Below, in pieces: positions 244 through 7,036 of a stretch of DNA of 10,325 nt. How positions within the stretch are numbered: the stretch's first letter is position 1; every line of letters begins with the position of its first letter. Both the position numbers and the translations under genes were made by a program. The notes beneath the pieces were generated by a model. The model did not search any database, was not told the DNA's origin, and worked only from the letters and a program-made list of their open reading frames with translations. Location of the stretch: positions 1 through 10,325 of the forward strand of contig CACZRY010000021.1 in assembly GCA_902783745.1 (NCBI GenBank), read 5' to 3'. Origin of the DNA: an uncultured Erysipelotrichaceae bacterium. GTDB lineage: Bacteria; Bacillota_I; Bacilli_A; Acholeplasmatales; Anaeroplasmataceae.

Positions 244-1476
244 TTATTCATTTTTTAATAAACCTTTTAATGGGTTAATAGATGGATCAGTTTTTAATTT
301 ATAATTCCAATCCGCTCTTGATGCTTGATCTTTATTATTCCATTTAGATTGTGATATAGGAGTAATATAATCTTCTACTGTTTCACCCTTAGGATGCTTT
401 AAGAATAGATTATTTGGATCACTTGAAAGTAATGCTCTCTTACCATCACTTTTTAACCATTCATCAAAATCTCTTGATGCAATCTTTTGGATATATCCAA
501 CAAATAAACCTTTATTTGATAAATCCTCTTTCTTTGGAATATTTGTATGATGCTTAAATGCAGGAATATTATATAATTCCTTAACATATTCCCAAATGTT
601 TTTATATTCACTAATTCTTTTCTTTTGTGGACCTACATTAACATAAAAATCAGTTTCCCATTTAATTAATGTTACATAAGCTCTAATATCTGAATCAGTA
701 ATATAATCACCAAATATAAATCTATTAGTCTCAAGTCTCTTATCTAATTGTTCTAAAGCCTTATGGAAATCTTCTTGAGATTCATCATAAATTTCTGGTA
801 CTAATGTAAAAGCTTGACGGTAATGACCATTATTTATATGTGGGAATAACCAATCATTAAAATCATCTATTACATCTCTATATTTTACAGGATATAAATC
901 AGGTGCATCCTTAGGCTGTAAACCTCTAAATGCTACCTCTATATAATTTGTTAATCTATGATAATCATTATTAACTGCAACTTTTTTATTAATATCTACA
1001 AAAGTAGGTGTTGTTGCACGACCTGTATAATTCTTATCAGCATTTAAATAAAATTCTGACAAGAAATGTACTCCTGTATATTTATCCTTAAATCCCTTTT
1101 CATCTGGAAATCCCCATCCATATTTATTTGTATCTCCAGTATGACCAACAACGTAATCAATAATAACATCATCAAGTCCTAATAATTCCTTTGCGATAAC
1201 AGGTCTATTACTCCAGTTGCATCCAAAAGACCAATATATTGCAAATTTAGAACTTTCTGCATATTCCTTTGAAATAGGTGCAGTAAAATAGTTTGGCTGT
1301 CTTACAAATGCGCCTCTTTCATCTTGTTCAGATACAGTTTCTTTGCCTCTTGGCTTTGCACCAACTTCTTCTGCAAAGAATTGTGCAATATTATCATCAT
1401 ATTTTACTTTATTTGTATTTTCTTCTACCTTCTTCTTATGTGCTTGAATTCCGCAACTTACTACAATATCACTCAT
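244..1476 (-). CDS. Xi-class glutathione S-transferase / glutathionyl-hydroquinone reductase-like protein (copy 1)
   Basis: This 410-residue cytosolic protein resembles the YqjG/ECM4/PcpF family, which uses an active-site cysteine to reduce glutathionyl-hydroquinones with glutathione. The thioredoxin-fold N-terminal half carries IYWSFGCNWSNRPVIA at about residues 80-95, where the family usually has C-P-W-A. Cys86 is the presumed catalytic residue, and Pro and Ala are replaced by Asn and Ser. The segment FIFGDYITDSDIRAYVTLIK matches the helical C-terminal GST domain. The protein is longer than the roughly 330 residues usual for YqjG, mainly through N- and C-terminal extensions. I chose the ATG at 1476 because GGAGGAA lies just before it; the in-frame TTG at 1491 overlaps that site. 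It is the last gene of the ABC operon, 38 nt after the ATPase, and a close paralogue lies at 4597-5841. The family call is solid; glutathione as the real co-substrate is inferred. Confidence 0.85.
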   Translation of the reverse strand: MSDIVVSCGIQAHKKKVEENTNKVKYDDNIAQFFAEEVGAKPRGKETVSEQDERGAFVRQPNYFTAPISKEYAESSKFAIYWSFGCNWSNRPVIAKELLGLDDVIIDYVVGHTGDTNKYGWGFPDEKGFKDKYTGVHFLSEFYLNADKNYTGRATTPTFVDINKKVAVNNDYHRLTNYIEVAFRGLQPKDAPDLYPVKYRDVIDDFNDWLFPHINNGHYRQAFTLVPEIYDESQEDFHKALEQLDKRLETNRFIFGDYITDSDIRAYVTLIKWETDFYVNVGPQKKRISEYKNIWEYVKELYNIPAFKHHTNIPKKEDLSNKGLFVGYIQKIASRDFDEWLKSDGKRALLSSDPNNLFLKHPKGETVEDYITPISQSKWNNKDQASRADWNYKLKTDPSINPLKGLLKNE

Positions 1477-1514
1477 TTTATTTTCCTCCAACTTTTATAT
1501 TTTTTTATATTTAA

Positions 1515-2300
1515 TTAAATAATATATTCTGGTTCCTTTAACATATGCATCTTTTTTAGGAATTGTCTTGTACGTTCATGCTTTGGATTTCTAAAAACTT
1601 GATCAGGTTTATCATCTTCTATAACGTGACCTTTATCTAAAAATATTACTCTATTAGATACTTTTCTTATGAAATCCATTTCATGAGATACTAAAATCAT
1701 TGTATATCCTTCTTTTGCAACCTTTCTTATAATGTCTAAAACCTCTCCAATAAGTTCTGGGTCTAACGCAGATGTAGGTTCATCAAGAAGAATAATCTCA
1801 GGCTTCATTGCAAGTGTTCTTGCGATTGCAACTCTTTGTTTTTGTCCACCTGATAAGTGTCTAGGATAATGATTTTGATGATCTAATAATCCAACATTTT
1901 CAAGTTCTTTTAACGCAATCTCTTTTGCTTCATCTTTTTTCTTTTTTTGGACTATAGTTAATCCACTCATTACATTTTTAAGTGTGTTTTTATGCTCAAA
2001 TAAATTAAAGTTTTGAAAAACCATTCCAGTTTTTTTCCTTAGCTTTAAAGAATTCTTTTTATTTTGCCCTTTTAATGGGAATTTAACATCTATTACATTT
2101 GATGAATCATTATCATCAATATATGTAATTTCACCTTCCTCAGCTGTTTCTAAAAAATTTATGCATCTTAATAATGTTGATTTACCTGTTCCTGATGGTC
2201 CTATAATTCCAATAATATCACCCTTATTAATTGTTAAATCAATACCATCTAATACTTGATTATTGTTGAACTTCTTCTTCAACCCCTTGATTTGTAACAT
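1515..2300 (-). CDS. Amino-acid ABC transporter ATP-binding protein (TcyC/GlnQ type, probably cystine or a related thiol)
   Basis: This is the nucleotide-binding subunit of a polar amino-acid importer, acting as a dimer on the inner face of the membrane; 261 residues is normal. Visible motifs are Walker A GPSGTGKST (34-42), the Q-loop VFQNFNLF (Gln96), the signature LSGGQKQRVAIA (149-160), Walker B IILLDEP with Glu174, the D-loop SALD and switch His206 in VSHEM. An acidic/basic insertion at about 62-87, between Walker A and the Q-loop, also occurs in TcyC/TcyN-type subunits. The gene overlaps the permease by 41 nt, so the two are likely translationally coupled. It is followed by the GST-like gene. 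ABC importer ATPase is near certain; the thiol substrate is inferred from the Cys/Met-rich leader peptide and the neighbours. Confidence 0.93.
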   Translation of the reverse strand: MLQIKGLKKKFNNNQVLDGIDLTINKGDIIGIIGPSGTGKSTLLRCINFLETAEEGEITYIDDNDSSNVIDVKFPLKGQNKKNSLKLRKKTGMVFQNFNLFEHKNTLKNVMSGLTIVQKKKKDEAKEIALKELENVGLLDHQNHYPRHLSGGQKQRVAIARTLAMKPEIILLDEPTSALDPELIGEVLDIIRKVAKEGYTMILVSHEMDFIRKVSNRVIFLDKGHVIEDDKPDQVFRNPKHERTRQFLKKMHMLKEPEYII

Positions 2301-3102
2301 CTAAATCACCATCCTTTTCATCAAGAATTTCTTTTTCGATATCTTTTTTCTTTAATACCTTATAAATAAACTTCTTAAACTTACTTTGCTTATTTGAATC
2401 CACTTGGTCAGGGATTGTAATATGCTTTTCTAATATTTTCAATAATCTTTCAATTATAAATGTAATTATCCAATAAATTATCGCAAGTGCAACATATCCT
2501 TCTAAATATCTATATGTTCTACCTGAAATAATTTGAGCTTGTGCTGTAATTTCAATAACTCCACATGCAAACGCAAGTGATGTTCCCTTAATTAAACCAA
2601 TTAAAGAATTTACAAGTCCTGGTACTGCTACCTCTGCAGCTTCAGGAATAATTATCTTAAATAATATTTGAGGATAAGTCATTCCCATCGCATGTGCTGC
2701 TTCTATTTCTCCTTTATTAACAGAAATAAATGCCGCTCTTATAGTTTCTGATGTAAATGCTGATTGATAAATACCTAATGCCATAAATGCATATATTATC
2801 TTTGGAATTCCTCTTATTATAGTATTATCAGCACCAAATGCTTGTAATATTAAAGGAACACCATAATATGCAACATATAACTGTATAATCATTGGGGTTC
2901 CTCTTATGATAGATAAGAATATTTTTGCTAGCTGTTCTAAAACTATAATTTTTTTGATTCTTACTATCGCAAGTAATAAACCTAATACTAATGAAATAAG
3001 CATTGCTACTAACGCAAGTTCCAATGTAATAGGGAGCTTATTTAAAAGCTCAGGCATTTGACCCCATACTCTTCCCCAATCAAATATAGATGAGAGTATC
3101 AT
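2260..3102 (-). CDS. Amino-acid ABC transporter permease (HisM family, TcyB/TcyL-like)
   Basis: This is the membrane subunit of a polar amino-acid importer. The hydrophobic segments typical of the family run from residue 24 to about 222. IIRGTPMIIQLYVAYYG (65-81) is the family hallmark, and GEIEAAHAMGMTYPQ (131-145) is the EAA loop that docks on the ATPase. The region ISGRTYRYLEGYVALAIIYW strongly resembles cystine permeases of the TcyB/YtmL group. An unusual charged tail of about 50 residues (231-280) follows the last membrane segment, and its coding sequence runs into the ATPase gene. The start at 3102 is supported by AAGGGGGGAT, which overlaps the stop codon of the small ORF upstream. No binding protein is encoded in this operon; the one at 5880-6734 is the obvious partner. 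Confidence 0.93.
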   Translation of the reverse strand: MILSSIFDWGRVWGQMPELLNKLPITLELALVAMLISLVLGLLLAIVRIKKIIVLEQLAKIFLSIIRGTPMIIQLYVAYYGVPLILQAFGADNTIIRGIPKIIYAFMALGIYQSAFTSETIRAAFISVNKGEIEAAHAMGMTYPQILFKIIIPEAAEVAVPGLVNSLIGLIKGTSLAFACGVIEITAQAQIISGRTYRYLEGYVALAIIYWIITFIIERLLKILEKHITIPDQVDSNKQSKFKKFIYKVLKKKDIEKEILDEKDGDLDVTNQGVEEEVQQ

Positions 3103-3116
3103 ATACTAATCCCCCC

Positions 3117-3227
3117 TTATCTTTGGTATTTAAAATTCATAGGAATTTTTAATACCTTATTATCATATAATTCTATATTTGTCTTACTATAAGACAATCC
3201 CATTTTTTTAATCATTTCTCTTTTCAT
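3117..3227 (-). CDS. Small 36-residue ORF of unknown function, first after the operon A attenuator
   Basis: An uninterrupted reading frame starts MKREMIKKMGLSYSK and ends with FKYQR and TAA. It has the strongest ribosome binding site in the window: AGGAGGAGA, 6 nt before the ATG. The peptide is basic and soluble-looking, with no membrane segment or cysteine, and I recognise no family. Its stop codon touches the permease ribosome binding site and lies 14 nt before the permease ATG, so it could couple permease translation to the transcript. It occupies the place that the binding-protein gene has in operon B. It might be a small functional peptide, a coupling ORF or what is left of a deleted gene. 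Translation is likely from the signals; function is unknown. Confidence 0.55.
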   Translation of the reverse strand: MKREMIKKMGLSYSKTNIELYDNKVLKIPMNFKYQR

Positions 3228-3250: not shown

Positions 3251-3285
3251 AAAAAAAATAACGGAGCCTTAGACAGCTCCGTTAT
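3251..3285 (-). terminator. Intrinsic terminator of attenuator A
   Basis: A perfect 10-bp stem (ATAACGGAGC, 3276-3285, with GCTCCGTTAT, 3258-3267) and an 8-nt loop are followed on the minus strand by a run of T. It lies between the leader peptide and the first structural ORF of its own operon, so it can only act as a conditional terminator there. Confidence 0.88.
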
Positions 3286-3333
3286 AATTTATAATCCATA
3301 TTTTATAAATTATTTATAGGATATAGTCCAAGG
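3267..3333 (-). promoter_or_regulatory. Predicted antiterminator pairing of attenuator A
   Basis: CCTTGGAC (3326-3333), inside codons 27-30 of the leader peptide, can pair with GTCTAAGG (3267-3274) through 8 bp including one G-U pair. TCC (3319-3321) can extend this with GGA (3278-3280) across an internal loop. The pairing takes up the loop, three bases of the 5' arm and the first base of the 3' arm of the terminator, so the two structures exclude each other. A separate perfect 11-bp AU hairpin (3284-3294 with 3303-3313) holds the leader stop codon and abuts the terminator. Confidence 0.6.
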
Positions 3334-3413
3334 TAAAAAACTGTATTATGCATATTACACATACAGCACATCATCATATTAATATTCATTGTAAATAAAT
3401 TAATATTTCTCAT
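3303..3413 (-). CDS. Cys/Met-rich leader peptide A (36 residues)
   Basis: This short ORF is the first on the transcript that begins at the promoter at 3464-3492. It starts MRNINLFTMNIN and then reads MMMCCMCNMHN at residues 13-23, giving three cysteine and five methionine codons within nine (codons 13-21). The site AAAGGA lies 10 nt before the ATG. The ORF is followed by an intrinsic terminator before the first structural gene, which is the layout of a ribosome-mediated attenuator. About 23 nt separate the last Cys codon from the predicted antiterminator strand, enough to leave it free when a ribosome stalls on the Cys codons. The peptide aligns without gaps to leader peptide B. By analogy with amino-acid leader peptides I infer that it senses charged tRNA-Cys and/or tRNA-Met. 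A metal-sensing or nascent-chain arrest peptide is the alternative. Confidence 0.75.
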   Translation of the reverse strand: MRNINLFTMNINMMMCCMCNMHNTVFYLGLYPINNL

Positions 3414-3424
3414 AATGATCAATT

Positions 3425-3454
3425 CCTTTCCTACTAATCCTACTATTTTACTAG
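3425..3454 (-). other. Conserved 5' UTR element, copy A
   Basis: Lying just after the likely transcription start, this 30-nt stretch matches copy B (6969-6998) at 23 positions, including the shared blocks CTAGT, TAGGA and TAGTAGG. It contains an imperfect CTA/TAG hairpin and ends at the leader peptide's ribosome binding site. Its role is unknown. Confidence 0.5.
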
Positions 3455-3463
3455 GTTAGATAT

Positions 3464-3492
3464 ATTATAGAACTATAATACTTATTTGTCAA
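3464..3492 (-). promoter_or_regulatory. Promoter of operon A
   Basis: TTGACA (3487-3492) and TATAAT (3464-3469) are both perfect consensus boxes with a 17-nt spacer. Transcription should begin near 3457, about 44 nt before the leader peptide ATG. A promoter this strong in front of a conditional terminator suggests that control is mainly after initiation. Confidence 0.88.
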
Positions 3493-3510
3493 CATAAAAA
3501 TAACAATTTT

Positions 3511-3541
3511 TAAAAATTAAAAAGCAGCTATAAAAAGCTGC
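3511..3541 (-). terminator. Intrinsic terminator of the aldo/keto reductase gene
   Basis: GCAGCT (3524-3529) pairs with AGCTGC (3536-3541) around a 6-nt loop, and on the minus strand TTTTTAATTTTT follows. It starts 8 nt after the stop codon of the reductase and lies about 20 nt upstream of the operon A -35 box, separating the two units. Confidence 0.85.
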
Positions 3542-3548
3542 CTTATAA

Positions 3549-4394
3549 TTATTCTTCATATTGAATTTTCCATGCTAAAAACTTCTCTAATTCTTCTTCA
3601 GTTCTTATATATCTTCTTGAATTACTATTTAGCTTTTCTATTTCCTTCATATCAGAATGGCATAAATTAAAATCAAATATATCGAAATTCTCTCTTATAT
3701 GATCTATATTCTTACTTCCAGGAATAACAATAAATCCCATTTCAGTATGCCATTTTAATATAATTTGTGCTGGTGTCTTGTCATATTTTTCTGCAATATT
3801 TTTTATAATATAATTTTCTCTTAATTCTAATGTTTGTCCTTTTCCACCTAATGGATACCAACTCATAAGCTTAATATTAAATTTATCAATTACTTTTCTT
3901 AATTCGGTTTGTGGAAATAATGGATGGCATTCTACTTGAATAACCTGAGGTAAAATATCAAATTCATGGATTAATTCATTAATATATTCACCTTCAAAAT
4001 TAGATACACCAATTGCTTTAATTTTACCTTCTTTATATGCTCTTATTAATTGCTTATATCCACTACGCCAATTCTTTGTTGGTTGATGAATAAAAAGTAA
4101 ATCTATATAATCTAATCCTAATCTTTTTAATGTTTCATCTACTGCATTATCATTTTCATATTCTGATGGCCAAAGCTTAGTTGATACAAATATTTCTTCT
4201 CTTTTAATCATAGATTCTTTTATACCAATTCCAACTGCCTTTTCATTTCTATATGCATTTGCAGTATCTATTAATCTATATCCCATTTTTAACGCTTCTC
4301 TTACGGAATTTTTAGCATCAGTAGGTTCAAGTAAATAAGTACCAATACCTATATTAGGCATTTTAATACCATTATTTAATAATATTTCCTTCAT
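3549..4394 (-). CDS. Aldo/keto reductase (AKR family, 2,5-diketo-gluconate reductase-like)
   Basis: This is an NADPH-dependent cytosolic reductase of aldehydes and ketones with a TIM-barrel fold; 281 residues is the usual length. The catalytic tetrad is complete: Asp43 and Tyr48 in LIDTANAYRNE, Lys73 in STKLWP and His103 in LFIHQP. IKAIGVSNFE, QVECHPLFPQ and the cofactor-binding segment IPGSKNIDHIRENFD are also present. The substrate cannot be read from the sequence. The gene has its own terminator and lies about 200 nt after the operon B GST-like gene, past that operon's terminator, so it is a separate unit set between the two attenuated operons. The region just upstream holds TAAAAT as a possible -10 box but no convincing -35. 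AGGTGAT precedes the ATG. Confidence 0.92.
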   Translation of the reverse strand: MKEILLNNGIKMPNIGIGTYLLEPTDAKNSVREALKMGYRLIDTANAYRNEKAVGIGIKESMIKREEIFVSTKLWPSEYENDNAVDETLKRLGLDYIDLLFIHQPTKNWRSGYKQLIRAYKEGKIKAIGVSNFEGEYINELIHEFDILPQVIQVECHPLFPQTELRKVIDKFNIKLMSWYPLGGKGQTLELRENYIIKNIAEKYDKTPAQIILKWHTEMGFIVIPGSKNIDHIRENFDIFDFNLCHSDMKEIEKLNSNSRRYIRTEEELEKFLAWKIQYEE

Positions 4395-4465
4395 AAAATC
4401 ACCTGCCTTTATTTTATTTTACCATATTTAATATTAATCTTATAATTTTAATTATTTTGAAGGAA

Positions 4466-4491
4466 GGAAAAAGGCACTTTGACGTGCCTTT
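4466..4491 (-). terminator. Intrinsic terminator of operon B
   Basis: AAAGGCAC (4484-4491 read on the minus strand) pairs with GTGCCTTT (4470-4477) around a 6-nt loop, followed by further T residues. It lies about 105 nt downstream of the GST-like gene. The AT-rich stretch between them shows no ORF that I can support. Confidence 0.8.
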
Positions 4492-4596
4492 CTAAGTGTG
4501 GGTTTTATTATTTATTTTATCGTTATTATGCCTAATTTTTTTATTTTTATTTTCGCTATAAGCTTTTACTATAACTCTTTATAATTTAAATATTTA

Positions 4597-5841
4597 TTAA
4601 TTTTTTAATAATCCTTTTAATGGATTAATAGAAGCATCTACCTTCAATTTAAAATCCTTATTAGCTCTAACCTCTTGTCTTGGATCATTCCAAATTGTCT
4701 TAGAAATTTCAGTTTGGTAATCTTCTACAGTTTCACCATTTGGATGGCGTAAATATATATTTTCAGGATCACTTGATAATTCTTTTCTCTTATGATCTGT
4801 TTTAAGTTCAATATCCCAATCAATCTTTGCTGCAATTCTTGGTAAATAAGTGCCAAATACTTTTGTTTCTAGTGATTTATCATTTTGTGGAATATTAGTA
4901 TAACGCTTAAATTCTGGAATACTATATAATTCTTTTACATATTCCCATACATTTTTATATTCAGATACTCTTTTCTTTTGTGGACCTACATTTACATAAA
5001 AATCTGTTTCCCACTTAACTAATGAAACATATGCTCTAATATCTGAATCTGTAATATAATCCCCAAATAAGAATCTATTTGTTTCTAATCTCTTATCAAG
5101 TTTTTCTAAAGCTTCGTGGAAAGCCTTTTGTCCGTCCTTATATCCTTCAGGTGATTGTGCAAATGCTTGACGATAATGTCCATCGTTAATATTAGGGAAT
5201 AGCCAATCATTAAATTCATCAATCTCTTTTCTATATTTTACTGGATATAAATCAGGTGCGTCCTTAGGTTGGAATTTTCTAAATTGTACTTCTAAATAAT
5301 TAGTTAATCTATGATAATCATTATTAACTGCTTTCTTTTCCTTGTAATCCGCTAATGTTGGTGTTGTTGCACGACCTTTAAAATCAGGGTCTACATTTAA
5401 ATATAAATCTGATAAAAAATGAACTCCTGTGTATTTATCTTTAAATAATGGTTCTTCTGGGAATCCCCAACCATATTTATTGCTTTCACCTGTGTGTGAT
5501 ACCTTATAATCTAAGATCACATCTTGTAATCCCAATATATCCCTCGCGATAACAGGTCTATTGCTCCAGTTACAACCAGGTGACCAGTAGATGATATATC
5601 TATCCTTATCTGCCTTAAATTCACCATCTTTATCCCCAAAAGGTGTAGTTAAATAATTAGCCTGTCTAACCCAGAATCCTCTTTCATCAATTTCTCCATT
5701 TTGAAGACCTGGTCTAGGCTTTGAACCATATTCTTTCGCAAAATATTCTGCTAAATTATCAGTATATTCAATTTCATTACTTTCTTTTAAAACTTTAGCT
5801 TTATGAGCCTTAATTCCACATTCTAATTTAATTTCTGCCAT
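4597..5841 (-). CDS. Xi-class glutathione S-transferase / glutathionyl-hydroquinone reductase-like protein (copy 2)
   Basis: This 414-residue paralogue is colinear with the protein at 244-1476, sharing long identical stretches such as VNNDYHRLTNY, FGDYITDSDIRAYV and KWETDFYVNVGPQKKR. The active-site segment IYWSPGCNWSNRPVIA keeps the cysteine (Cys90) and again has Asn-Trp-Ser in place of Pro-Trp-Ala. The family transfers or removes glutathione on quinone-like substrates; which low-molecular-weight thiol this organism uses is not visible. I prefer the ATG at 5841: it gives a 9-nt spacing from AGAGG and matches the paralogue's N-terminus (MAEIKLECG against MSDIVVSCG). The in-frame ATG at 5847 would leave only 3 nt. 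It follows the binding-protein gene by 38 nt and closes operon B, as copy 1 closes operon A. Confidence 0.87.
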   Translation of the reverse strand: MAEIKLECGIKAHKAKVLKESNEIEYTDNLAEYFAKEYGSKPRPGLQNGEIDERGFWVRQANYLTTPFGDKDGEFKADKDRYIIYWSPGCNWSNRPVIARDILGLQDVILDYKVSHTGESNKYGWGFPEEPLFKDKYTGVHFLSDLYLNVDPDFKGRATTPTLADYKEKKAVNNDYHRLTNYLEVQFRKFQPKDAPDLYPVKYRKEIDEFNDWLFPNINDGHYRQAFAQSPEGYKDGQKAFHEALEKLDKRLETNRFLFGDYITDSDIRAYVSLVKWETDFYVNVGPQKKRVSEYKNVWEYVKELYSIPEFKRYTNIPQNDKSLETKVFGTYLPRIAAKIDWDIELKTDHKRKELSSDPENIYLRHPNGETVEDYQTEISKTIWNDPRQEVRANKDFKLKVDASINPLKGLLKN

Positions 5842-5879
5842 TTTCATTTACCTCTTTCTTATCTTAAAAACTTACCCAA

Positions 5880-6734
5880 TTAATTTAAATAAACATAATC
5901 TGAATCAGATGGTGCTAAATCAACACCTGCGTATTGAATTGATAATCTTGTTAATGTACCATCATCATGTAATTCTTTAATTACATTAGATATTTCTTGT
6001 CTTAACTTAACACTATTTGCTGCAGCCTTACCAAATAATAAATGTGATGTTGCAGATGTAGTAATAAGCTTTGTCTCTTCATCAGATAAAATTGTCTGCT
6101 TTAATGTACCATATGTATCAGGATATTCCTTAGCCCATGCATTTAGAACAGGAATATCTCCTAATTCAACATATTCACCTGATAAATAGTATGGAATCTT
6201 TGCAGTAATATCAATTCCTGTATACTCAATTTCAATTTGCTTTGAAGGATTTGCCTCATTCCATCTCTCAATAGCGTTTGTTGCATTATTACCTTGTGAA
6301 CCAAATACCTTCTTACCTGCTTCTGCAACTTGGCTAAATGATGAATATGCAACACCATCACCTGATACAAACGCATATTTTGCTCTTGTATATGGATATG
6401 AGAAATAATAAGTCTCTGCACGACTTGAATTATAACTCCAGTTATTGATTGTAAAATCAATTGTTCCTGTTTGTGCATCAACTAATGCAGAATCTGAAAC
6501 TTGTAAATCAAGCTTATATTGTGGTAATCTATCAAAAACCTCATTAATTACTGCAATATCATATCCATCAAGATTACCTTGCTCATCTTGATAAATGAAT
6601 GGTGCTGGTGCTCCTTTTGTTTCAGCATAAATAATTGTTACACCATCATTCTTAGCGTTAGCGCATGATGCTAGCGCAATTGTTGTAGCTCCTACTGCTA
6701 CTGCACTAAAAAATACTTTCTTAAAAATCTTCAT
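5880..6734 (-). CDS. Family 3 extracellular solute-binding lipoprotein (cystine/glutathione-type ABC importer)
   Basis: This 284-residue protein would capture substrate outside the membrane and deliver it to the permease. The N-terminus MKIFKKVFFSAVAVG is a lipoprotein signal ending in the lipobox LASC, with lipid-modified Cys24. The mature part shows the SBP_bac_3 pattern: APFIYQDEQGNLDGYDIAV near the start, IDFTINNWSYNSSRAETYYF and KYAFVSG in the ligand-binding lobe, and a C-terminal VIKELHDDGTLTRLSIQYAG. The ATG at 6734 is chosen because it starts a proper signal peptide after AGAGAGG; an in-frame ATG at 6794 lies in the attenuator hairpin. No permease or ATPase is present in this operon, so it probably works with the pair at 1515-3102. 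The Cys/Met-rich leader points to cystine, cysteine, methionine or glutathione as ligand; this is inference. Confidence 0.9.
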   Translation of the reverse strand: MKIFKKVFFSAVAVGATTIALASCANAKNDGVTIIYAETKGAPAPFIYQDEQGNLDGYDIAVINEVFDRLPQYKLDLQVSDSALVDAQTGTIDFTINNWSYNSSRAETYYFSYPYTRAKYAFVSGDGVAYSSFSQVAEAGKKVFGSQGNNATNAIERWNEANPSKQIEIEYTGIDITAKIPYYLSGEYVELGDIPVLNAWAKEYPDTYGTLKQTILSDEETKLITTSATSHLLFGKAAANSVKLRQEISNVIKELHDDGTLTRLSIQYAGVDLAPSDSDYVYLN

Positions 6735-6769
6735 ATTAATAACCTCTCTTATCTTCTTTCTATCTAATA

Positions 6770-6798
6770 AATAAAAAATGGAATGCCCAAGCATTCCA
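6770..6798 (-). terminator. Intrinsic terminator of attenuator B
   Basis: TGGAATGC (6791-6798 on the minus strand) and GCATTCCA (6779-6786) form a perfect 8-bp stem closed by TTGG, followed by TTTTTTATTTATT. It lies between the leader peptide and the binding-protein gene, 45 nt before the latter's ATG, and so acts within its own operon. Confidence 0.88.
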
Positions 6799-6862
6799 AC
6801 ATAAAACTAATATTCTAACAAATCTACTGCTCTTTAAAATATGCTTTAGGTATGGAATACTT
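6789..6862 (-). promoter_or_regulatory. Predicted antiterminator pairing of attenuator B
   Basis: AAGTATTCCA (6853-6862), codons 30-33 of the leader peptide, can pair with TGGAATGCTT (6789-6798) over 10 bp with a single G-U pair. The second strand is the entire 5' arm of the terminator plus half of its loop, so antiterminator and terminator are mutually exclusive. The first strand can also fold on itself as GTAT-TCC-ATAC, which may help release it when no ribosome is stalled upstream. Confidence 0.72.
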
Positions 6863-6949
6863 CATGACGAAAAATGCTGTACGCATCATACAACAACCAA
6901 AACACATATTAGACATATTATTGTTATTTAATAAATTAATATTTAACAT
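6824..6949 (-). CDS. Cys/Met-rich leader peptide B (41 residues)
   Basis: This is the first ORF on the operon B transcript, with AAAGGAG 9 nt before the ATG and a TAG stop 25 nt before the terminator. It starts MLNINLLNNNN and then reads MSNMCFGCCMMR at residues 12-23: three cysteine and four methionine codons in eleven. Cys16, Cys19, Met15 and Met21 occupy the same positions as in leader peptide A. Residues outside the cluster match too (N3, I4, N5, L6, N10, T24, F26, Y31, I33). A ribosome held at Cys19-Cys20 would leave the antiterminator strand, 27 nt downstream, exposed. I infer cysteine and/or methionine attenuation of uptake; a copper-binding or arrest peptide is possible. Confidence 0.78.
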   Translation of the reverse strand: MLNINLLNNNNMSNMCFGCCMMRTAFFVMKYSIPKAYFKEQ

Positions 6950-6968
6950 AGTATCGGTCTCCTTTCAT

Positions 6969-6998
6969 CATTCCCTACTATTCCTAGTTATTCACTAG
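6969..6998 (-). other. Conserved 5' UTR element, copy B
   Basis: Here CTAGTGAATAACTAG (6984-6998) forms a perfect 5-bp hairpin, followed by the shared block GGAATAGTAGG. It matches copy A at 23 of 30 positions although the surrounding untranslated sequence has diverged. It starts within a few bases of the predicted transcription start. Function unknown. Confidence 0.5.
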
Positions 6999-7007
6999 AC
7001 ATTAATG

Positions 7008-7036
7008 ATTATAAATCCATAACTAAGTATTGTCAA
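7008..7036 (-). promoter_or_regulatory. Promoter of operon B
   Basis: Perfect TTGACA (7031-7036) and TATAAT (7008-7013) boxes are separated by 17 nt, the same geometry as the operon A promoter. Transcription should start near 7001, about 52 nt before the leader peptide ATG. Confidence 0.88.

Follow-up and report, generated by a model that had tools for sequence, protein, structure and literature searches.

Organization of the two units

The window, that is, the whole stretch of DNA analysed, comprises the first 10,325 nucleotides (nt) of contig CACZRY010000021.1 (assembly GCA_902783745.1) from an uncultured Erysipelotrichaceae bacterium assigned to the Acholeplasmatales. Its minus strand carries two transcriptional units, A and B, each with a promoter, a ribosome-binding site (RBS), a short leader open reading frame (ORF) containing a cluster of Cys and Met codons, an intrinsic terminator and, further downstream, genes for part of an amino acid ABC importer and for a glutathione S-transferase (GST)-like protein. 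Each unit probably governs a thiol-uptake operon through two layers of control, in which an operator at the transcriptional start site is combined with a Cys/Met leader attenuator. The attenuator had been proposed in an earlier note made from the sequence alone; the other layer, an inverted repeat shared by the start sites, was overlooked there.

Both promoters, described in that note as perfect, matched TTGACA-17-TATAAT at 12/12 consensus positions (7008..7036 in unit A and 3464..3492 in unit B, minus strand, as for all features of the two units). In unit A, an operator-like inverted repeat, TCTAGTGAATAACTAGGAATAGTAGGGA (6972..6999), lies immediately 3' of the -10 box and is followed by the RBS, GAAAGGAGACC (6956..6966), and by a leader ORF of 41 amino acids (aa), MLNINLLNNNNMSNMCFGCCMMRTAFFVMKYSIPKAYFKEQ (6824..6949), which is also supported by the leaders of relatives. 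The Cys/Met codon cluster of this ORF (CFGCCMM, 6884..6904) overlaps a hairpin, H1 (6875..6895), in which Cys codons are paired with UACAGC ahead of a U-run; H1 resembles a pause site or early terminator and is weak on its own (33/200 shuffles equally good). Near the end of the ORF, the antiterminator strand AAGUAUUCC (6854..6862) can pair at 9/9 positions with GGAAUGCUU, the 5' arm of the intrinsic terminator identified by the terminator scan (UGGAAUGCUUGGGCAUUCCA-UUUUUU, 6773..6798). Unit B has an inverted repeat of the same kind (CCTAGTAAAATAGTAGGATTAGTAGGAA, 3428..3455), a leader ORF of 36 aa (MRNINLFTMNINMMMCCMCNMHNTVFYLGLYPINNL, 3303..3413) and an H1 hairpin (CUGUAU...AUACAG then UUUUUU, 3341..3366; 16/200 shuffles equally good), together with a weak candidate antiterminator strand, UACAGUUUUU (3336..3345), that could pair with CGGAGCUGU (3281-3273). 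A further hairpin found by RNA folding, H2 (AUAAUUUAU:AUAAAUUAU, 3284..3313), adjoins the terminator of unit B, which was located by the scan at 3251..3285.

Downstream of leader A, the gene order is solute-binding protein (SBP), then GST. The SBP is a GshT/TcyA-like lipoprotein (5880..6734; SBP_bac_3, PF00497), the family profile of which gave 4c0r and 4eq9 as best solved chains; we take these to be structures of GshT, the glutathione-binding partner of TcyBC. The GST-like protein (4597..5847; GST_C_2) is of the YqjG/Ecm4 kind, and its PDB matches included 3m1g (the best), 3r3e (YqjG) and 4uss (a glutathionyl hydroquinone reductase). Leader B is followed by a cystine-type, TcyB-like permease (2260..3102; NF011680, cystine permease, as best model, below cut-off), a TcyN-like ATPase (1515..2300; NF008428, TcyN, as best model, below cut-off) and a second GST-like protein (244..1491; GST_C_2), which is listed with a TTG start at 1491 and for which an in-frame internal ATG may be the true start. 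Between terminator B and the permease gene lies an ORF of 36 aa (3117..3227) that had no relative among the loci of other genomes compared and is possibly a remnant.

An SBP, a permease and an ATPase of the polar/cystine kind are thus all present, as a GshT/TcyBC-type importer requires, and the substrate, as far as these protein matches indicate, may be cystine, glutathione or both, the permease and the ATPase having missed the equivalog cut-offs. The division of one importer between the units, as the earlier note had it, with the SBP in A, the permease and ATPase in B and an aldo-keto reductase gene between the two leader-led halves, is a local arrangement, since genome G002 has the SBP, one GST, the permease and a second GST in a single block with one leader detected. 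According to the available part of one report, streptococcal GshT is a separate glutathione-binding lipoprotein working with the cystine importer TcyBC (PMC7733945), much as the SBP here stands apart from the importer, whereas G002 and relatives have these genes grouped; the likeness is one of sequence.

Leader ORFs compared with chance

ORFs preceded by a Shine-Dalgarno sequence (SD) were scored by the number of Cys plus Met residues within 12 residues. Among the 22 such short ORFs of the window, the two leaders scored 7 and 8 and the remaining 20 scored 0 or 2, and no ORF scored above 5 in 100 order-2 Markov simulations of the window; the density of Cys and Met reported earlier is therefore well founded. 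Run on 562 kb of loci (both strands, overlaps counted twice), this detector picked out 25 distinct ORFs, missing the weaker leaders L051 and L054 (L and G numbers denote loci and genomes of the compared set). Every ORF scoring at least 6 was judged by context to precede an SBP, GST or dipeptidase operon, and the six ORFs of unrelated-looking context all scored 5. A scan at a lower cut-off gave a single score-6 ORF in L155, 3' of a GST gene, which was taken as chance. Cys and Met together made up 26.5% of 711 residues across 21 leaders (Cys codons: TGT 65, TGC 17).

In the two closest leader pairs, indels within the ORF had lengths of 6, 15, 3 and 3, as against 2, 1, 1, 2, 6 and 1 in the flanks. 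When all 11 pairs were taken, 27 ORF indels were multiples of three and 37 were not (14 and 41, respectively, in the flanks), a count that is unreliable because divergent pairs yield split 1+2 gaps, and weight was placed on the two closest pairs alone. Leaders A and B are 29% identical, and B is nearer to the SBP leaders of several other species (48-57%); by this comparison the two are homologous, as had been stated, but are no recent duplicate.

Leaders in Acholeplasmatales and Lachnospiraceae

The closest named genome records are rumen Acholeplasmatales, other members of the group being filed as Bacillales. A leader was found ahead of 9 of the 10 strong same-genus SBP loci (the window's included), the tenth, L028, being operon-internal; 18 weak matches (E 6e-8 to 2e-4; L026 of the same genus) were left out of this count. 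A leader-peptide profile made from nine of these leaders matched 11 places (E 2e-17 to 6e-6) spread over 8 of the 27 genomes of the genus, and the leaders at the two weakest places had not contributed to the profile; leaders A and B matched with E 3.3e-15 and 6.1e-14, respectively, each being itself a row of the profile. Other Acholeplasmatales leaders stand ahead of GST or PepV-like dipeptidase genes (L068, L073, L116), and L051 and L054 precede GNAT genes. Some GST and permease copies in draft genomes have interrupted frames (L097 in G024:C59; L082 and L094 in G012:C57), which may be due to assembly error or decay.

Relatives of the SBP led to GST/SBP operons of Lachnospiraceae with like leaders (L061, L065, L069, L070/L071); in L069-L071 the leader is upstream of a GST gene that precedes the SBP gene. 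A GST search of 397 Lachnospiraceae genomes, 22 of which had a match, added leaders L135, L137, L139 and L150, a clear leader being seen in 4 of the 27 new loci scanned. Among nine SBP loci outside the Acholeplasmatales (a count that omits the truncated L074), a leader lay directly upstream in two, and none was present at L060, L062, L063 and L066. The search of relatives' genomes for such ORFs that the earlier note suggested was thus successful at SBP loci, at 18/18 readable metY genes (see below) and in several Lachnospiraceae GST/SBP operons. At the nucleotide level, a match at E 1e-3 was obtained for 2 of 104 pairs (13 Acholeplasmatales by 8 Lachnospiraceae leader regions), both involving L068a (L068 1450-1527), which matched L065 and L070 and is alone among the Acholeplasmatales leader regions in resembling any Lachnospiraceae leader at this level.

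The Lachnospiraceae versions suggest a different outer regulator: upstream of the leader, L061, L069 and L150 (by Pfam) and L065 (by eye) have a gene of the LysR family, and a GTGATAA...TTATCAC dyad stands ahead of the leader in these four loci. The operator-pattern flag, for the repeat described below, was negative at L061, L065 and L069-L071. In 7/7 leaders (L061, L065, L069, L070, L137, L139, L150), CGA-ATG encodes an Arg-Met pair located at the Cys cluster or immediately past it; the CGA codon may be translated slowly or may belong to an RNA element. In Treponema zioleckii (L066, about 5845-5915), the SBP gene is associated with a TTGACA box and with a repeat, CCTAGT...ACTAGG, that resembles the operator, and no Cys leader was found there; the operon may have been transferred and the attenuator left behind.

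Terminators and antiterminators

Of the 21 leaders of this kind scanned (class 1, as distinct from the metY leaders treated below), 20 could be given a terminator, which overlapped the end of the ORF in L051 and was missed in L007, and those of four further leaders (L135, L137, L139, L150) were picked by eye. In folds of the RNA 3' of a ribosome placed on the Cys codons, a strand at the end of the ORF paired with the 5' arm of the terminator, as in unit A (AAGUAUUCC:GGAAUGCUU) and L004 (CCAUAUUCC:GGAAUGUGG); further pairings of this type are those of L073 (CAUAAUUCAU:AUGGAUUAUG), L069 (CUUCCAGGCA:UGCCUGGAAG), L137 (CUCCCGGACA:UGUCCGGGAG) and L150 (CUCCCGGGCG:CGCCCGGGAG). Taken singly, the antiterminators were clear in 8/21 leaders (at most 17/300 shuffles equally good), namely these six, L061 and L070. 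Antiterminator A (9 bp) was equalled by 3/300 shuffles and antiterminator B by 73/300, so that, of the antiterminator/terminator pairs claimed for the window, both terminators and antiterminator A stood, but antiterminator B was weak.

As a group, the antiterminator strands matched their own terminators. In a swap test, permutations were at least as good as the matched combination in 461/20000 cases for the Acholeplasmatales (n = 13; 603/20000 with two close relatives removed, n = 11) and in 138/20000 for the Lachnospiraceae (n = 8); the pooled value (0/20000, n = 21) is confounded by GC. L007 (terminator not found), L051 (terminator overlapping the ORF), L068b and L071 (both duplicates) were omitted from this test, and L071, L073, L051 and L068a from one further terminator/antiterminator analysis. 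In 7/8 Lachnospiraceae leaders the antiterminator strand begins near where the leading edge of a ribosome would be, at 14-23 nt (counted by hand) from the start of the Cys codon that comes last ahead of CGA-ATG. An H1 hairpin, with Cys codons and then a U-run, was present in the minimum free energy structure of 12/13 Acholeplasmatales leaders; L005, L006 and L073 were the only ones in which it outdid 95% of shuffles.

Two further pairings were tried and rejected. The sequence UAGGAAUAG of the operator seemed complementary to the antiterminator strand (for example in L009) and could have served as an anti-antiterminator; it matched no better than permuted sequences (9750/20000, n = 12). Pairing of the start region with the distal ORF, considered as a general feature of class 1, gave 1326/20000 in the Acholeplasmatales and 256/20000 in the Lachnospiraceae; it is not general in the former and is suggestive in the latter, and strong single cases were L073, L054 and L135 (0/200 shuffles).

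The start-site repeat and a candidate Rrf2-type regulator

The start-site repeat, CCTASTN7TAGGAA, for which base counts were drawn from 30 instances, had 23 sites in 17 of the 27 genomes of the genus, as against 2 for the reversed control. The 14 sites inspected were mostly ahead of metY, cysK, GNAT or GST genes; that of L042 is within an unrelated gene, and that of L055 is just before an operon-internal GST gene. Among these gene names, one metY (O-acetylhomoserine/O-acetylserine sulfhydrylase) and two cysK were checked and found over the cut-off, and two GNAT genes and one dipeptidase gene were also checked.

The window's genome encodes a single Rrf2 protein that passed the Pfam threshold (PF02082); its gene is directly upstream of cysK (L032 1460-2875) and is itself preceded by an operator-like sequence, ATAGTAAATTACTAGGAATTGAGG. 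The protein scored below the equivalog cut-offs for IscR (118.7 of 207.55 bits) and CymR (88.7 of 195), and is thus assigned to the Rrf2 superfamily only. CymR and CysK form a pair in other Firmicutes, and by analogy we infer that the Rrf2 protein binds the start-site repeat. Both marks of an Rrf2 regulon were found, namely an Rrf2 gene in the genome and an inverted repeat common to the promoters of sulfur genes.

Leaders ahead of metY

metY was sought in 55 genomes of the family, and 30 loci were inspected (the upstream regions L193-L212 among them), of which 18 had a readable start; by the pattern used, no start was found in L198 (contig end), L204 (with an 83% identical metY) and the more distant L213-L222. 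A Cys-containing leader ORF preceded all 18 readable metY genes, with the start-site repeat at 17/18. These leaders have two to five Cys residues in 17/18 cases and a single one in L208, and Cys and Met make up 10.4% and 11.5%, respectively, of their 480 residues. The window's own genome has such a leader (L203, MAIMDSGCMDDCDCCMKNSHDVIYDLYK), as do sister-genus genomes (L201, L202). The SD/start region of the metY leaders pairs with the distal part of the ORF (mean -14.4 kcal/mol as against -11.8 for permuted combinations; 0/20000, n = 18). This pairing was clear singly in 13/18 (at most 10/200 shuffles) and clearly lacking in L209 and L210, and the GTG start of L195, with an altered partner, forms a compensatory set.

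The attenuation regulon proposed in the earlier note for a single importer has support in the conserved leader ORFs, the terminators and the group-level antiterminators, but is wider, also taking in metY, a PepV-like dipeptidase, GNAT genes and additional GSTs of the YqjG-like type.

Comparison with known systems

Firmicutes are usually said to sense Cys/Met supply via T-boxes, S-boxes and CymR. Apart from two tRNAs in L039, nothing in Rfam, T-boxes and SAM elements included, exceeded the gathering threshold in the window, in 19 loci of Acholeplasmatales or in 15 others (8 of these from Lachnospiraceae); weak matches to STnc240, DLEU2, L20-leader and mir-15 were at chance level. The absence of T-boxes and S-boxes noted for the window thus held at the loci searched, but the group uses T-boxes elsewhere, with 9-14 matches per genome in 27/27 genomes of the genus.

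The layout resembles the trp, his and leu/ilv attenuators, in which a short ORF with many codons for the regulated amino acid, followed by a competing antiterminator and intrinsic terminator, precedes genes for that amino acid. It differs in its mixed Cys/Met cluster, in its targets (importer, GST and metY), in the extra start-site repeat and in its host, a low-GC member of the Acholeplasmatales that also has T-boxes. Polycysteine leaderless short ORFs of mycobacteria reportedly mediate cysteine-responsive attenuation (Canestrari 2020, by title). Runs of Cys codons ahead of cys operons are common to those ORFs, to the Actinobacteria and to the leaders described here, as far as the available portions of the sources go; the mycobacterial ORFs are reportedly leaderless, whereas the present ORFs are SD-led, have intrinsic terminators and mix in Met. 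For the Actinobacteria, Cys leaders were proposed, and a conserved terminator hairpin was not found, according to the accessible part of that report (PMC1262725).

In the Rhodobacterales, uORFC-8-2 before cysS has tandem Cys codons and a terminator-like U-run, and ribosome-mediated attenuation was proposed (PMC8632094); it is alphaproteobacterial, concerns cysS only and usually has its two Cys codons at 14-15, and the sections of that paper at hand mention no Met cluster. The same paper describes uORFC-13-1 before aroF in Acholeplasma, a related genus, with the same layout of promoter, RBS, ORF and terminator; control by Phe codons was suggested, and a Cys/Met cluster is not mentioned. His leader attenuators have been predicted in Bacilli, Peptostreptococcaceae and Erysipelotrichales (PMC2965389, PMC9413887), and a Leu attenuator of the S. 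aureus ilv operon is experimentally supported and combined with the DNA-binding regulator CodY (PMC5794164); in the text available, these are cases of translated-leader control in Firmicutes, as here, which differ in amino acid, genes and lineage. In the literature covered, mostly outside subscription journals, a Cys/Met leader was described neither for Acholeplasmatales nor for Lachnospiraceae, nor on a cystine/glutathione importer. The earlier remark that such control is not known to be described for organisms of this kind is accordingly reduced to the Cys/Met version, which looks new, since leader-peptide attenuation has already been predicted or supported in Firmicutes and proposed in Acholeplasma.

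Proposed mechanism and alternative explanations

The leaders are most likely Cys-responsive (and probably Met-responsive) ribosome-mediated attenuators under an Rrf2-type operator. In the first layer, the Rrf2-type regulator encoded beside cysK in the window's genome would bind the repeat over the start site. The second layer would be made up of the short ORF with its Cys/Met cluster, the strand near the end of the ORF able to pair with the terminator 5' arm, and the intrinsic terminator. With charged tRNA-Cys (and probably tRNA-Met) plentiful, the ribosome would complete the ORF and the terminator would halt RNA polymerase; when charging drops, the ribosome would stall in the cluster, the antiterminator strand would capture the terminator 5' arm, and the importer and GST genes would be transcribed. 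The conserved frame, the Cys/Met content, the terminator and the group-level antiterminator match are supported by the comparisons between genomes; we infer that the leader is translated, that the ribosome stalls, which amino acid it senses, which way the switch works and which regulator binds the DNA.

Several observations weigh against this interpretation. In 13/21 leaders (unit B, L005, L006, L008, L009, L010, L011, L054, L068a, L116, L065, L135, L139), 48-237/300 shuffles paired as well as the antiterminator, and L007 was without any terminator passing the scan. In a partition-function model, pre-pairing of the terminator arm was 0.61-0.64 with the ribosome stalled at Cys and 0.58 with the ribosome at the stop codon; 18/21 leaders changed in the expected direction when the better stall was taken (Wilcoxon p 0.10), units A and B showing no difference, and as the stall-versus-stop difference is not significant, the direction of the switch rests on analogy. 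Conserved non-Cys residues (NTAF; RM...RA in Lachnospiraceae) exceed what codon counting needs, and some sit in paired strands. The SD of the Lachnospiraceae leaders is not independent evidence, the detector having demanded one. Between the end of the leader and metY, no U-run of the sought pattern was found in 17/18 cases (L212 being one weak case), and the class-1 mechanism therefore cannot explain the metY leaders.

It is unlikely that the start-site operator controls the units alone, the ORFs being small functional Cys-rich proteins or passengers and the terminator setting a fixed ratio. The good conservation of the repeat would fit this, as would the presence in the window's genome of the Rrf2 gene that precedes cysK and has a repeat-like sequence ahead of it, but a LysR-family gene takes the upstream position at L061, L069 and L150 of the Lachnospiraceae, five of whose loci were negative for the operator flag; moreover, the order of ORF and terminator is constant while peptide length, tail and Cys spacing vary, and the antiterminator strands follow their own terminators as a group. 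Nascent-chain sensing has been proposed for some Cys-motif leaders, and MxCC/MCxC clusters resemble Cu(I) ligands, so the ORFs might instead be nascent-chain sensors of metal or of thiol oxidation, in which copper binding or oxidation on the ribosome would set the stall. The YqjG-type GSTs among the targets and the conservation of some non-Cys residues are in keeping with such a sensor, which we nevertheless regard as quite improbable: the Cys spacing is not conserved (CC, CxC, CxxCC, CCCCCC, and a single Cys in the cluster of L054), the targets that can be named are mostly sulfur or thiol genes (cystine/glutathione import, metY, cysK, PepV-like dipeptidase, GSTs), and a metal-transport gene was not noticed at the leader loci, though no search was aimed at one.

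A riboswitch-like or protein-bound RNA that merely chances to be open, with an incidental peptide, would account for the strong structure of some leaders (H1 in L005, L006 and L073; the start-region pairing of metY leaders), but it is very improbable given that Cys/Met clustering is common to both taxa while only 2/104 leader pairs match as nucleotides, that the ORF indels of the two closest pairs keep the frame, and that no Rfam match was obtained. Very improbable too is a role of leader translation mainly in coupling, RBS release or mRNA stability, with ordinary hairpins, which could hold for the metY leaders in particular, these having no visible terminator and a start region paired with the distal ORF, and to which the p of 0.10 for stall versus stop also lends itself, but against which stand the terminators of 20/21 class-1 leaders scanned and of four more by eye and the antiterminator complementarity above permutations in both taxa.

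Biological significance

Beyond the window there may be, with a confidence that falls just short of even, a large, unrecognised Cys/Met leader regulon across rumen Acholeplasmatales and Lachnospiraceae, under Rrf2 regulators in the former and LysR regulators in the latter, that would act on thiol import, on YqjG-type GSTs and, in Acholeplasmatales, on metY; the metY leaders would be a new device, the distal ORF pairing with its own start and the position of the ribosome on the Cys codons setting re-initiation of the leader. A genus rich in T-boxes appears to read cysteine by leader peptides before a thiol importer, GSTs and metY. With a LysR-type gene near the distant Lachnospiraceae leaders, the two taxa offer a natural comparison in which one sensor would be retained while the outer regulator differs. 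The regulon would also account for unannotated Cys/Met-rich micro-ORFs, and it suggests that the scavenging of thiols and glutathione is a controlled trait in rumen bacteria.

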